38,709 nucleotides of DNA. Origin: Oscillospiraceae bacterium. GTDB taxonomy: Bacteria > Bacillota > Clostridia > Oscillospirales > Acutalibacteraceae. Below the pieces are notes generated by a model, which saw only the letters and a list, made by a program, of their open reading frames with translations, was not told the origin of the DNA and searched no databases. The stretch covers positions 1 through 38,709 of the forward strand of contig SVOA01000014.1 of the NCBI GenBank assembly GCA_015066635.1, in the 5' to 3' direction. Position numbers and translations under genes: made by a program. Positions 2,571 through 38,274 of the stretch are shown one piece after another; positions within the stretch are counted from its first letter, which is position 1, and every line of letters begins with the position of its first letter.

Positions 2571-5070
2571 CAGAGTTGATTCAAATGACTTAAAAAGATG
2601 TATAAAGCAGGCTCTGCCGTTTCCCGCTATTGCGGCATTAGTGCTGTTTATTATGCACAGCGTTCCCCTTATCTCATATGTACTCAGCAAGGAATTCCGT
2701 TCTCAGCGCACAAAGCTTGAAATAATCTCCTTCTTCGGAGAGCCGTTCCTCAACAGCAGTTTAATACAGTTCGGTATGGTTTGCTGCGGAATGGTTACTG
2801 CAGCTGTGCTGTTTATGTTCTTATTCAAAAAGAATTCCGTAAACGTTTATCTGAGTATGGGCATCACGAGAACAAGGCTTTATTTTAACCGAATTGCTTC
2901 GGGTGTAAGTCTGATATTCCTTGCTTCGTTTATCCCCATGACAGTAAACCTTATCGTAAACCTTTTCTGCTTCGGAGCAAACGCACATCTCTTCCAGGTT
3001 TACTTTTATATGCTGCTCGCATATTTTATCCTTGGACTTGCGGGCTTTGCAGTTGCATCGTTTACGGCAACCGTTTCCGGCAGCTTTATAGAGCTGGTTA
3101 TAACCTCTATACTGTTTTCCATTATCCCCATTATGATTAAGAATGAGTTAAAGACTCTCAAATACGGACTGCTTAACGGGTTTGCGGACAACGGAGCGGA
3201 AATTGCACGGAACATCACTGATGTTCTTTCCCCGTTTACAATTATCAAGGACCTTGACAAAAGTATAAAAATAGATGAAGTTCTTTACAATCCAATCAAC
3301 CAGCTTGGCGTGCAGCTTACAAAAAAGGTTCCCGAATCTCTGATGCTCGACAGCGGACTTATGATTCCGATATTCACATGGATAATTATTGCGGCGGTTC
3401 TGCTCGCACTCGGATACTTCCTCATAAACAGAAGAAAGATGGAACATTCCAACTCCTTCGGTAAGTTCTATATTTCGTCTGCAATAAACGGCACGGCAGT
3501 TTTCTGTGCGGCTATGCTTCTGCTCAATACGATAAACACTGATTTATATACGAGCGGAGACGGTCCGATGCGTGTTTTCAGACAAAATATCACTGTTTTC
3601 CTGATTATTACAATTGTCGGCACGCTCATAGTCTATTTCATAGGACAGCTCATCATAAAGCGCAAATTAAAAGCAGCCGTAAAGATGCTTCCCGTTTACG
3701 CCGTGCTTGCGGCATTATCCGTTGCAATGATACTCTGCTTCAGGACGGGATATTTCGGCTCATATAACAAGCTGCCTGCACAGACGCAGATTAAGTCTGT
3801 CGCCATGGACATAAACGATGAAAGAAATCTGTTTGACTACGGATGTTATTCGATTGCTGCCCAACGTTCACCCGAAAAAGCATATACCAGCAGCAATGCA
3901 GATGACATAAAGCTGGCTGAAAAATACTTTGAGCTTATACGCGACCAGAAATACAGCGATAACTTCGATCAGAGGATAACCTTCTGCTTTGAGCTTAAGG
4001 ACGGAAGCTATTTGACGAGGTCATTCCACGTTTATACACGTGAGCTTTTTGACAGCTATGTCAGGGATGTTTATGCGTCAAACTTCTTTAAGGGCTATAT
4101 GAAGTATCTTATGCTTGAAGACCCGTATCCGATGTCAGAAGAGAATGATTCGGAAGGAAGCTATTATTATAACACCTTCGGCGCAAGGGTTTACTACGGC
4201 ACAGAAGACGAAAACTCAAAGGGCAGATATAAGGCTCTTGACTGGTACTGTCTCGGCAGCAGTCTTGTCATAGACGGCTACAACAGAGATAGCAACACGG
4301 TCGGACTTGAGCCCATTGAATTCAAGGAAGAGCTTTTGAAGGCGCTCTACGAGGACCTTACAAAACTGAGTTATGACGAGGTATATAAGAATAACGCCCG
4401 TCCCGTTGCGGTGCTTACCTCCGATTTCTGCGCTCTGCCCTATGCAACCGACAAGCTTTTCTCAACGGATTACGGCGATATGGTAACCGAGGCAGAGGCA
4501 AAGGAAAGGGAAAACGGCGACCGCAGTCTTTACAAAAAGAATTCGGCGGCTTACGCCTCCCCTGCGATTTATATTTACCCGCAGATGACAAACACCCTGA
4601 ACGTGCTGAGCGCTCACGGTTACGAATTACCCGAATACTCTGCCAAAATCAAATACGCTTATGTAACGCAGTCAAGCGAAGGTCTGCTCAAGGCCATCGA
4701 CGCTCTCCGTACCAAGCTCAGCGAGACGAATAAGGACTATTACTACTATTCAGACGACGTCAACAGTCCTTATCTCAACACCTTCCGTTTCTGCAACGAT
4801 TTTGACAGTATTTTATATAACGACTTCTATTCCTTTGAAAATCCGAATTACTCGGACACATACGAGAGCACGCTCAATAAGGTGTTTGCCGACATCGGCA
4901 AGCCCCTTACCAAAATTGAGGATACTGCAAAGTCTCAGGCAATTAACGAAAAGGCAGTCCCCTTCTATGACACCTACGGAGACGACGGACGCTATGTCTT
5001 CTTTATCTGGGACGACAACGCCATGACAAGCAGCTACGTCCCATCGGCAAATGCAGACGTGCTGAAATAA
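2545..5070 (+). CDS. Large ABC transporter permease with C-terminal extracytoplasmic domain
   Basis: An 841-residue protein. The first ~400 residues hold about nine hydrophobic helices (near residues 29-50, 73-95, 115-145, 152-178, 182-200, 273-295, 312-330, 350-371 and 378-398). They are followed by roughly 440 hydrophilic residues rich in Tyr, Asp, Ser and Asn with no further membrane helix, so this part should lie outside the cell. It starts with ATG at 2545, 9 nt after GGAGG (2531-2535), inside the ATPase gene. Operon context makes it the membrane partner of that ATPase. I cannot name the C-terminal domain with certainty; YtrA-linked exporters with such domains are common in Clostridia and poorly studied. 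Export of a lipid, peptide or antibiotic-like substrate is a guess. A strong terminator follows. Confidence 0.8.
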   Translation: MTSLRYSNDRVDSNDLKRCIKQALPFPAIAALVLFIMHSVPLISYVLSKEFRSQRTKLEIISFFGEPFLNSSLIQFGMVCCGMVTAAVLFMFLFKKNSVNVYLSMGITRTRLYFNRIASGVSLIFLASFIPMTVNLIVNLFCFGANAHLFQVYFYMLLAYFILGLAGFAVASFTATVSGSFIELVITSILFSIIPIMIKNELKTLKYGLLNGFADNGAEIARNITDVLSPFTIIKDLDKSIKIDEVLYNPINQLGVQLTKKVPESLMLDSGLMIPIFTWIIIAAVLLALGYFLINRRKMEHSNSFGKFYISSAINGTAVFCAAMLLLNTINTDLYTSGDGPMRVFRQNITVFLIITIVGTLIVYFIGQLIIKRKLKAAVKMLPVYAVLAALSVAMILCFRTGYFGSYNKLPAQTQIKSVAMDINDERNLFDYGCYSIAAQRSPEKAYTSSNADDIKLAEKYFELIRDQKYSDNFDQRITFCFELKDGSYLTRSFHVYTRELFDSYVRDVYASNFFKGYMKYLMLEDPYPMSEENDSEGSYYYNTFGARVYYGTEDENSKGRYKALDWYCLGSSLVIDGYNRDSNTVGLEPIEFKEELLKALYEDLTKLSYDEVYKNNARPVAVLTSDFCALPYATDKLFSTDYGDMVTEAEAKERENGDRSLYKKNSAAYASPAIYIYPQMTNTLNVLSAHGYELPEYSAKIKYAYVTQSSEGLLKAIDALRTKLSETNKDYYYYSDDVNSPYLNTFRFCNDFDSILYNDFYSFENPNYSDTYESTLNKVFADIGKPLTKIEDTAKSQAINEKAVPFYDTYGDDGRYVFFIWDDNAMTSSYVPSANADVLK

Positions 5071-19973: not shown

Positions 19974-21587
19974 TTAATCTTTCATCTTTTTGCCGTAACG
20001 AATCTGATTTACAATAAATCCGACTCCGAGAATAAGAATCAGGGGAATTAAGAATATAATTGCCAGAAGTACGGTAATTATTACTATCGGCACGCCCTTT
20101 TTGCTCTTTTTAATCTCGGGTTTGGGTTCCTCTGCAGGCGCAGGTCCCTGCTCGCCCTGATTATAAAAAGGCATAATCGGAAGCTCTGCGTCATAGGACG
20201 GAATTCCCGTACTGTGAATAAGCGGTTCAACCAAATCGTGAAGGCTGTCGCATACCTTGAGAAGTTTTCTGACCTTAATATGAAGCGCATCGAATACAGA
20301 ATCAATTATACTGATAAGTCCCATACAGATTTTGTATTCGGGGTCCTCGGGATTATAGAGGTTTGCGCCGCCGTAAAGGTTAAGCACCATATCCACAATA
20401 AAGTCAACAACGCTCTTATCCTTTATATCCGCATAGTCCTCGGGCTTAAGTCCCGTCTCTTTTTTTGTCCACTTTGCAACCTTGCCTATGGTCAGCCTGT
20501 TCAGATATTTGGCGACGGGCTTTATCAGCCAGCCGATTTTATAGACAAGCTTTTTCTTGATACTCATAGCGGTTGCCATACTTGCGAAGGTGTCCGTGTC
20601 GCTGCCTGCCGCTTTTATCATATCCTTTATCATACCTGCAAGCTGATACGCGAGATATTCCTGCAGCGTTTTGCCCTCAAGGTCAAATTTAACGGGCTCG
20701 GTTATGAAATCGGTAGTAACCTTAACAATATTATTGTCGGGGTCAAGAACTATATTTCTCATTGTACCGGGATAACCTATGAGCGCGGCAGTAGCTATGT
20801 CGTAAAAGGTATTGCCCCTTGCGGAGGTATATTTGTCAATGTCGTGGATATGCGTATGTCCCGTCAGCATAAACTGAATTCCGATATCGGCAAACTGCTC
20901 GCGGCGTATATCGTAGTCGCCGAACATATCGCCCTTACCGATTATTTCATAAATCGGAGAAGGCGGTATCAACGGATGATGAGTCATCGCAATAATGAAC
21001 TGTCCGTTTGCTCTCGCATCGTCCGCCTGAACCTTTATCCACTCGTAAAGCTCATCCGAAACTCCGCTTTTTCCCGAAAGGTTGCTGTCGTCATTTATCG
21101 CGAAAAGGCGGTAGCCCTCCTCAAGCTGAACTATAAACGACATACTGTCTCTGTGAACTGCGATGGCTTCGTCGGGTCCGAATTCACGGTACATATCAAA
21201 GAGTTCTTCACGTTTGACGGCGGGAACCTGTATTCTTTTATCCCCGTCATATCCCCACGCAAAGCCCTCCGACTTGTAGTCGTGGGTTGCGGTAAGCACA
21301 TAAACTCTTTTGCCCGCCTTTTTAAGACCGCGAAGCTGCTCAATGGCCTCTTCGTGCGCCCAGAGCTCTCCCTCGTTGGTAGTGTCGCCGGACAGAAGGA
21401 CTATGTCCGTTCTGCTGTCTTTTTTTATCTGCTCGTATGCGGCGTCAAGCAATTCTGCGCTGTATTTTAAAAGCTTCTGACTCTTTGCATTGGCTTTATC
21501 GTACTCGCTTCCGCTTGTGCCGACGCGCTTGGAAAAATAGTGCGTATCGGTAATAACCGTAACGCTCAACGGCTTTCTCGGTAACAT
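19974..21587 (-). CDS. Membrane-anchored calcineurin-like metallophosphoesterase
   Basis: A 537-residue protein. The N-terminal metallophosphoesterase domain (about residues 5-300) shows VITDTHYF (Asp, His), VLLSGDTTNEG (Asp), MTHHPL (His) and LTGHTHIHDID (His-x-His). The expected GNHD/E motif reads TATHDY, so the metal-binding Asn is replaced by Thr. A helical region without recognised motif follows, then a Pro/Glu/Lys linker (about 470-493) and one C-terminal hydrophobic helix (IVIITVLLAIIFLIPLILIL) with a basic end. There is no signal peptide, so a tail anchor with a cytoplasmic catalytic domain is likely. Only 34 nt separate it from the thrS remnant, with no terminator. Its own promoter may exist (TTGTAA, 18 bp, CATAAT near 21625-21655). 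Substrate unknown. Confidence 0.85.
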   Translation of the reverse strand: MLPRKPLSVTVITDTHYFSKRVGTSGSEYDKANAKSQKLLKYSAELLDAAYEQIKKDSRTDIVLLSGDTTNEGELWAHEEAIEQLRGLKKAGKRVYVLTATHDYKSEGFAWGYDGDKRIQVPAVKREELFDMYREFGPDEAIAVHRDSMSFIVQLEEGYRLFAINDDSNLSGKSGVSDELYEWIKVQADDARANGQFIIAMTHHPLIPPSPIYEIIGKGDMFGDYDIRREQFADIGIQFMLTGHTHIHDIDKYTSARGNTFYDIATAALIGYPGTMRNIVLDPDNNIVKVTTDFITEPVKFDLEGKTLQEYLAYQLAGMIKDMIKAAGSDTDTFASMATAMSIKKKLVYKIGWLIKPVAKYLNRLTIGKVAKWTKKETGLKPEDYADIKDKSVVDFIVDMVLNLYGGANLYNPEDPEYKICMGLISIIDSVFDALHIKVRKLLKVCDSLHDLVEPLIHSTGIPSYDAELPIMPFYNQGEQGPAPAEEPKPEIKKSKKGVPIVIITVLLAIIFLIPLILILGVGFIVNQIRYGKKMKD

Positions 21588-21621: not shown

Positions 21622-21997
21622 TTATGCCTTGGTTTCAATTTCCTTTACAAGCATTTCCTTAAACGCATCAATTCTCATCGAACCTATATCTCCGTCTCCT
21701 CTGCGTCTTACGGAAACCTCATTTGATTCGGCTTCCTTGTCGCCGATGACGAGCATATAGTTAATCTTCTGAAGCTGTGTGCCAGAAGGTCTTGTTGCCC
21801 TCAAGGTCGTCGCCGAAGGTAACTATTTCGAGGTTGCAGTCCTTTTCGACAGGCGTGCGCAAATCAACGTATTCGCCGTCAATCCTGCCGCCTACTGCCG
21901 CCTTGTAGAGCCCCATACCGATACTTTTTGCAATATCGGCAACGGTAGTGCCGTTTTCAAATTCTCTGACATCATCTCTTAGCGTAACTTTAATCAT
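21622..21997 (-). pseudogene. thrS: Remnant of threonyl-tRNA synthetase (large internal deletion plus frameshift)
   Basis: The 5' part (ATG at 21997, GGAGG 8 nt upstream) encodes MIKVTLRDDVREFENG... to KTFWHTAS, i.e. the TGS domain and the start of the editing domain of ThrRS, then runs into ED-stop at 21761. In another frame the sequence continues QLQKINYMLVIGDKEAE...SVRRRGDGDIGSM...KEIETKA to a stop at 21622, the last ~51 residues of the anticodon-binding domain. A normal ThrRS has ~640 residues, so about 500 codons, including all catalytic motifs, are missing. The junction is near 21770-21781, around a short CAGCTTCA. The T-box leader upstream is complete. A working ThrRS must be elsewhere, unless this is an assembly error. 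Confidence 0.85.
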
Positions 21998-22012
21998 TTC
22001 GTTTTCCTCCTT

Positions 22013-22265
22013 AAAAAAGAAAAAGCACCTCATCCTTAAAAAGGGATGAAATGCTGTTAATTACATTCCACGGTTCCACCCGTATTGCAGAAAAAATCTG
22101 CCGCTCAAAAGACCTTAACGCAGTCGGACGGAATACCTTAATCTCGGCTTTCGGTATTCACTCGGGAGCGGTCGCGTAATACTGCGTTGTAATTCTGTCG
22201 CACCTGTCAGAATCTCTCTTTGACAAAGCGTTGTATCAGCGTTCTCCGTCATCGTTTTAAATATC
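22013..22265 (-). promoter_or_regulatory. T-box leader, threonine type
   Basis: A tRNA-sensing attenuator. The T-box core GGGTGGAACCGTGG lies at 22069-22081 (minus strand), with the antiterminator before a terminator AGCATTTCATCC / GGATGAGGTGCT and T-rich tail (22013-22056). Stem I contains AAAGAGAGATTC, and its 3' side of the specifier loop holds consecutive Thr codons ACA ACG. TGGA in the T-box pairs with a tRNA ending U-CCA, consistent with tRNA-Thr of Firmicutes. It leads directly into the thrS remnant, and uncharged tRNA-Thr should allow read-through into it and onward. The specifier assignment is read by eye. Confidence 0.9.
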
Positions 22266-22271
22266 ATATAT

Positions 22272-22299
22272 ATTATACATTTTTAAATAGAGAAGTCAA
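22272..22299 (-). promoter_or_regulatory. SigA promoter of the Thr T-box transcript
   Basis: On the minus strand TTGACT (22294-22299), 16 bp, TATAAT (22272-22277), starting 9 bp after the stop codon of the penicillin-binding protein gene. Confidence 0.85.
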
Positions 22300-33859: not shown

Positions 33860-34090
33860 AAAAAAACGCCTCATAAAATATGAGACGAAAAAATCCGCGG
33901 TACCACTCAAATTGCCCTAAAGGGCCGCTTAAAACCGATAACGGCGGCAACCGTCTCTGCTTAATCGGAAATCCGTTTGGGCAGAGCCACTCCGAAGCGA
34001 CGGCGAAACAAATGCTGTACTGCCTCGCACCTTACGGCAGCTCTCTTGAATCAGCAGATTTATTTCTTAACTTCCTCAATGTGTTTTGTT
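33860..34090 (-). promoter_or_regulatory. T-box leader of valS
   Basis: On the minus strand the core GAGTGGTACCGCGG lies at 33895-33908; the terminator CGTCTCATA - TTT - TATGAGGCG with T7 spans 33860-33887. Stem I shows CAAGAGAGCTGCC, and a GTA (Val) codon lies in the 3' side of the specifier loop (GGCAGTACAGCA). TGGT in the T-box pairs with a tRNA ending A-CCA, as expected for tRNA-Val. Rising uncharged tRNA-Val should open transcription of valS. Confidence 0.92.
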
Positions 34091-37932: not shown

Positions 37933-37945
37933 CGATATATAAAAT

Positions 37946-38274
37946 GTGAGTACGCCTGTAAGCCGAGTTCTGTCGTTTAAAGCAGTTATCTATCTAGGCA
38001 TACCGTTACCGATATGCTCAAGCCATCCTTTGAAGTATCTGCCCAGCTGACAACTTCGCTCGATGTTGCATCGGGTAGGGTTTACCTGGCAATACCGTTA
38101 CCGATATTCCGGTGAGCTCTTACCTCGCCTTTCCACCCTTACCGTAAAAACGGCGGTATATCTCTATGCACTTTCCCGAAGGTCGCCCTTGGCGGCCGTT
38201 AGCCGTTACCCTGCTGTATGATGCTCGGACTTTCCTCATGGGCCGAAACCCATGCAACTGCTCAGCCTGCTCAC
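37946..38274 (-). ncRNA. rnpB: RNase P RNA, class A
   Basis: The minus strand shows the universal landmarks in order: GAGGAAAGTCCGAGC (near 38223-38240), GGCGACC..GGGAAAGTGC, GTAAGGGTGGAAAGGCGAGG, GTAAGAGCTCACC, GGTAAACCC, AGATAGATAACTGC and ACAGAACTCGGCTTACAGGC near the 3' end. P1 can be closed by GTGAG at the 5' end (38270-38274) and CTCAC at the 3' end (37946-37950). This ribozyme matures the 5' ends of tRNAs. Two hairpins with GTAA tetraloops, taken as P14 and P18, share an identical 16 nt sequence (38092-38107 and 38000-38015). The promoter at 38281-38309 places the start at about 38275. Confidence 0.95.

Follow-up and report, generated by a model that had tools for sequence, protein, structure and literature searches.

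How does a bacterium come to keep a threonine T-box leader in front of a threonyl-tRNA synthetase (ThrRS) gene, thrS, that has lost its interior, which enzyme serves the cell instead, and what is left for the leader to control? The locus that raises these questions lies in a 38,709-nucleotide stretch of contig SVOA01000014.1, referred to below as the window, from a single draft genome of an Oscillospiraceae bacterium (GCA_015066635.1; 1,727,815 bases in 38 contigs, 97.38% complete and 0.28% contaminated). The collapsed thrS occupies the minus strand, where promoter, T-box, terminator, ribosome site, ThrRS N-terminal part and ThrRS C-terminal part follow one another in order, with a phosphoesterase gene (mpe) behind them:

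22272..22299, minus strand: sigma-70-type promoter TTGACT-16-TATAAT (consensus scan, 11 of 12 matches)
22039..22261, minus strand: Thr T-box leader (RF00230), specifier ACC, antiterminator GGGTGGAACCG, 88.8 bits
22024..22055, minus strand: intrinsic terminator of the T-box (consensus scan; 12 pairs, then TTTTCTTTTT)
21761..21997, minus strand: 78-aa open reading frame MIKVTLR...FWHTASED*, 76 ThrRS codons followed by E, D and a stop
21770..21779, minus strand: deletion junction CACAGCTTCA, which contains the CAGCTTCA of the first-pass annotation
21622..21777, minus strand: last 51 ThrRS codons, out of frame (TIGR00418 positions 519-564, 3.5e-9)
19974..21587, minus strand: mpe, encoding a 537-aa calcineurin-like phosphoesterase (PF00149)

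Five promoter-like sites were found between 21400 and 22500, compared with 1.7 (sd 1.5) in shuffled sequence, and the four besides the listed promoter each match at 9 of 12 positions. Terminator-like sites in the scanned region numbered two, compared with 1.3 in shuffles. The ATG of the remnant at 21997 is preceded by a ribosome site judged good by eye. The 78-aa open reading frame holds the TGS domain (PF02824, 3.7e-13) and the beginning of the editing motif, and this N-terminal ThrRS frame closes two codons past the junction, while the C-terminal piece (codons 21777-21625, stop 21624-21622) is read in a different frame. The native gene retains only the TGS domain and the last 51 codons; a functional ThrRS combines an editing domain, a class II core and an anticodon-binding domain, and this set is not complete here. 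The first-pass annotation had described a preserved promoter, T-box, terminator, ribosome site and ThrRS start, followed by a jump in a different frame to the last 51 ThrRS codons. Covariance-model, profile and consensus scans confirmed the first part, with 76 codons preserved, and profile matching and alignment confirmed the second.

The missing segment was measured against thrS loci retrieved from 30 of 38 congeners. Each of the 30 loci contains a full thrS, as the first-pass annotation had proposed to check in close relatives, and each can be matched to the window on either side of the junction, so the break is not a chance resemblance. The upstream match stops at query positions 544-551 in 27 loci and at 514, 514 and 559 in the others; the downstream match begins at 542-544 (13 loci), 522 (five) or 550-571 (nine), and later still in three diverged loci. 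In the 28 loci where motifs were found on both sides, the missing length is 1,532-1,565 bp (1,556 bp as judged by G022 and 1,553 bp by G009), and the lost part begins at the editing motif and ends within the anticodon-binding domain. In all 28 comparisons the length lost leaves a remainder of 2 on division by 3, which accounts for the change of frame.

Nine identical bases, CACAGCTTC, are present at both breakpoints in two of the 28 intact congener genes (G009 and G017), which makes a microhomology deletion plausible. The other 26 share 0-6 bases between the breakpoints; G022, the congener with the nearest leader and N-terminal part, nevertheless has a repeat of only four bases. Judging from these alignments, the ancestor plausibly carried a 9-10 bp repeat at both breakpoints, and such a short repeat may have caused the deletion. 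Of the microhomology deletion suggested at first pass, the loss of a large internal segment stood, as did the brief stretch of identity where the two parts meet, and the microhomology itself is no more than plausible on the basis of the two genes out of 28. A search with the junction sequence in viral contigs gave 0 matches.

A second ThrRS was found by profile search of the genome, as the first-pass annotation had expected of a cell with a broken thrS; it had named the lack of any other thrS as an observation against a real loss. The sole complete ThrRS of the genome is encoded on another contig, C37, at 132885-134657 (590 aa, 629 bits; curated ThrRS cut-off, 383.65 bits). Its domains are PF00587 (core), PF03129 (anticodon) and PF07973 (second additional domain), the set of a predicted functional ThrRS, and it aligns to E. 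coli ThrRS over 2-584; the domain profile search gave no TGS match in it. Exactly one ThrRS over the cut-off was found in 37 of the 38 congeners and none in G011 (75% complete). The C37 ThrRS is only 38-47% identical to those of the 37 congeners, compared with 80% to that of a Fusicatenibacter MAG (L085), 78% to that of Lachnoclostridium phytofermentans KNHs2131 (L086), 79% to that of a Lachnospiraceae MAG (L087), 76% to that of a Clostridia MAG (L088) and 74% to that of an Oscillospiraceae MAG (L089). In a quick tree of 61 rows it falls in a five-row set with L085-L088 (SH-aLRT 99), and the 30 congener ThrRS sequences lie on the opposite side. By these affinities the C37 ThrRS is of foreign origin. 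In 19 of 20 sampled genomes with a C37-type relative, including four of the five nearest, no second ThrRS over the cut-off was detected; the C37-type enzyme can therefore serve alone.

The surroundings of the C37 gene agree with this affinity in showing a local break from the congeners. The gene sits in a low-GC stretch of ~6.5 kb between tRNA-Arg(CCT) and asnA, with GC of 0.32-0.40 across the insert and 0.41-0.54 at its sides. With seven candidates per genome scored, the matches listed for the 38 congeners within C37:131.8-138.1 kb comprise only stretches inside the ThrRS gene and one of 60-70 bp; among the same listed matches, both sides of this region match congeners at length. The spacing between tRNA-Arg(CCT) and asnA is 0.9, 1.9 and 2.5 kb in G034, G009 and G035, and the C37 insert is absent from all three. 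A Thr T-box of its own precedes the C37 gene, separate from the native one (89.7 bits; specifier ACC followed by A, read by eye). Among its relatives, T-boxes are present at L085 and L089, and none was found at L086-L088. To see whether the C37 T-box shares its origin with those of the relatives, the DNA upstream of the C37 gene was compared with 43 related loci (L085-L127); the sole match is a stretch of 37 bp located at the L085 start codon.

Transfer as a fixed gene cassette was considered and rejected: in the same 43 loci, among 80 searched, the five C37 neighbours and asnS are not near the ThrRS gene, the exceptions being a deaminase at 35% in L123 and an AsnS segment at 25% in L127. Inhibitor resistance as the motive for acquisition was likewise rejected on the basis of two positions, the C37 ThrRS having unchanged Gly and Leu residues opposite Gly463 and Leu489.

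The interval between tRNA-Arg(CCT) and asnA varies in length and content among G000, the genome that holds C37, G009 and the pair G034 and G035 (L165:2558-9120; L169, L170 and L171), G034 and G035 having open reading frames in common there, and it is likely an integration hotspot. Separately, two sequences that are ~460 bp apart in the C37 asnA region recur side by side, at 95-98% identity, in G000:C12:20428-20646, which is a partial duplicate of that region with an internal deletion.

The native leader aligns to all RF00230 positions (1-219 of 219). Its score of 88.8 bits falls under the gathering score of 93, and for this reason it was missed by the gathering-score scan; leaders at the same place in congeners were found in 13 of 13 loci searched with 54.9-106.8 bits, a range that includes the native score. 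The specifier was read by eye from the covariance-model alignment, and both ACC (A99 C100 C101) and GGGTGGAACCG are invariant in the 13 aligned leaders. Specifier and T-box bulge were assigned by the general pairing rules of T-boxes. At the 70 columns that are invariant in 12 congener leaders, the native leader is unchanged at all 70; the same test on other leader rows gave 0-4 changes, with G013 an outlier at 27. Promoter, T-box and terminator survive in the collapsed locus and are predicted still to read uncharged tRNA-Thr.

The gene behind the remnant is intact. In the window, mpe begins 34 bp behind the thrS stop, and a co-oriented homologue, 60-80% identical, follows thrS in all 30 congener loci; the intergenic distance there is -2 to 63 bp when alignment is used to place the mpe starts. 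A scan for terminators covering the window found no terminator-like site on the minus strand between the thrS remnant and mpe, and no stable fold was detected in the gap there (z 0.66). Compared with G022, mpe gave a dN of 0.14 and a dS of 1.5. At E 1e-30 mpe was found in 0 of 22 genomes from other families of the order (22 of 23 order relatives, G042 being left out), 20 of which have a ThrRS over the cut-off; within the genus, G011 has only mpe paralogues (32-39%). Since thrS and mpe stand as a pair behind the T-box in all 30 congener loci, the T-box probably still has a gene to control. The T-box is probably the remaining control element of its operon and mpe its output, the layout indicating that the T-box would drive mpe transcription. 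The description of the locus at first pass as a working sensor without its enzyme was not borne out as worded, mpe being still downstream as in the 30 congener loci and the replacement enzyme having a Thr T-box of its own.

The age of the collapse was estimated from dN, for which 19 of the 30 congener loci were used; the samples are small and dS is saturated. The N-terminal part gave 0.08-0.23 against 17 congeners, compared with 0.005-0.29 among 12 of them, and shows no sign of faster change, its dN standing at the congener level. The C-terminal part gave 0.19-0.46 against 19 congeners and 0.00-0.58 among 12 of them. With the two reference congeners, the N-terminal part has dN of 0.08 to G022 and 0.11 to G009 (0.07 between G022 and G009), and the C-terminal part has 0.30 and 0.27, respectively (0.16 between the two). 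There is a hint here that the C-terminal part changes faster than its peers, i.e. that decay may have begun there. The loss of thrS looks young when set against the divergence of species, and the slight damage implied when the remnants were first called almost undamaged is supported by the dN comparison.

Taken together, the locus is probably a relic of an essential gene that was displaced, the native thrS having been deleted after the gain of the divergent C37 thrS. The genus unit would have been promoter, Thr T-box, thrS and mpe. The lineage would then have gained a divergent, TGS-less thrS with its own Thr T-box, now on C37 between tRNA-Arg(CCT) and asnA; this gain would have preceded the loss and made the native thrS redundant. 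About 1.55 kb would have been lost from its interior, probably via slippage or recombination between two short repeats, which removed the catalytic core entirely, almost the whole editing domain and a portion of the anticodon-binding domain. Antitermination would now yield the 78-aa TGS peptide and then, through the untranslated C-terminal remnant, mpe, and the T-box would be undamaged because it drives mpe. That selection has kept the Thr T-box, after the displacement of the ThrRS, as a threonine-starvation switch for mpe (and the 78-aa TGS peptide) is possible and is put forward tentatively. In that case two Thr T-boxes would operate in the cell, one controlling the imported synthetase and the other mpe.

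The deletion could also be real and its leftovers junk, with T-box and TGS peptide having no role, mpe expressed otherwise and the upstream part decaying. A loss that looks young means that an intact T-box need not imply selection, the C-terminal remnant may be decaying already, and two of the 9/12 promoter-like sites lie near the mpe start. However, promoter matches of this grade also arise in shuffles, the T-box is unchanged at every one of the 70 invariant columns, and an undamaged mpe follows immediately, as it does in all 30 congener loci; we regard this alternative as rather doubtful.

An assembler joining across an intact thrS, by error or through strain mixture, would leave the same appearance. 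The evidence comes from one draft assembly, all 30 retrieved congener thrS loci are unbroken, and ThrRS can drop out of good drafts: G058, an order relative that is 98% complete, shows none, and the ThrRS of G048 is split in two pieces on two contigs. Against this, the shared bases at the junction number at most 10, and a repeat of 9-10 bp is far below the usual assembly k-mer length. The missing ThrRS core was absent from every other contig in the profile search of the genome, which independently holds a complete foreign ThrRS, unlike those of all 37 congeners with a match, and the presence of this enzyme makes the loss of the native gene tolerable. An assembly artefact, which the first-pass annotation had kept as an option, is therefore less likely than it then seemed and is an unlikely cause of the collapse. 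Finally, it is very improbable that the 78-aa TGS peptide is itself what is being kept, e.g. by lending the C37 ThrRS its missing domain in trans: the peptide has a complete reading frame, a good ribosome site (by eye), a clean TGS match and an N-terminal dN at the congener level, and the replacement enzyme lacks a TGS match, but four of the five nearest relatives of that enzyme (open frames of 594-611 aa) are the sole ThrRS over the cut-off in their genomes, and the frame arose as an accident of the deletion.

The preferred reading, displacement of the native thrS by the C37 gene, was compared with known systems. Bacillus subtilis reportedly has two T-box-controlled ThrRS genes, thrS and thrZ, as Putzer et al. 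are said to have described in 1992. Both of these enzymes are intact. The present genome resembles that arrangement in holding two ThrRS genes behind Thr T-boxes, but here one ThrRS is destroyed and the other is foreign. In homeoallele replacement as set out by Andam and Gogarten (2011; PMC3191353), a gene that has diverged in sequence but performs the same function enters at another place, exists alongside the resident, and one of the two copies then disappears; genomes with a single ThrRS type are the rule according to its ThrRS section. The likeness lies in a foreign enzyme present and a resident lost in the same genome, here a single draft, and the pattern fits such a replacement caught after the loss step. 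The ThrRS case given in that paper is archaeal (ThrRS-C/ThrRS-R) and inferred from distributions, whereas in the present genome both the lost resident and its riboswitch can still be read; 'remnant' and 'pseudogen' have 0 occurrences in its main text. For T-boxes, a 2008 study (PMC2494555) treats the element as an independent module, and the four routes it gives are co-evolution or duplication. In the present locus, by contrast, removal of the gene would pass the T-box on to its downstream neighbour; the main text of that study has 0 occurrences of 'pseudogene'. An ObaO-type second ThrRS, as described in PMC11252418, gives self-resistance to an inhibitor and is likewise a second, divergent ThrRS in one cell, but ObaO is changed at the positions Gly463 and Leu489 that are conserved in the C37 enzyme. 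Literature searches, which covered few subscription papers, found no case combining a T-box riboswitch, a pseudogene and a synthetase, no case of a ThrRS, a pseudogene and horizontal acquisition, and, judged by title, nothing relevant on T-box and metallophosphoesterase.

A second collapsed thrS was observed in KNHs2131 (G063; L166, C2:382000-387500), in which profile positions 1-217 and 408-564 adjoin in differing frames behind a T-box of 104.1 bits. That genome also holds a ThrRS with a 668-aa frame and a T-box, in addition to the 78%-identical copy of the C37-type ThrRS, so that L166 is possibly a parallel case. No T-box match was obtained at the C37-type copy, downstream of which lie two transposase-like pieces of open reading frames (by eye; L168:3915-4250, plus strand, and 4427-4783, minus strand). 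The thrS locus of the genus itself (L022-L051) has several well-separated ThrRS core types behind T-box and TGS parts that resemble one another, a pattern suggestive of alleles being exchanged in place. Elsewhere in the window, on the minus strand, a T-box (33878-34088, 108.5 bits) lies just upstream of a 901-aa open reading frame, perhaps alaS, and a bacterial class A RNase P RNA was identified at 37943-38273 (252.5 bits).

Synthetase replacement by transfer is usually inferred from trees, with the loser already gone. The novelty of the present locus is that it shows a late stage of such a replacement that can still be read, in which the lost gene, the junction and the riboswitch occur together; the order of events, the mechanism and what became of the regulatory element are therefore open to testing. 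The conserved next gene, mpe, may have inherited the riboswitch. The locus points to a genus-wide link between the charging of tRNA-Thr and an uncharacterised phosphoesterase, in what would otherwise be taken for a plain synthetase operon.
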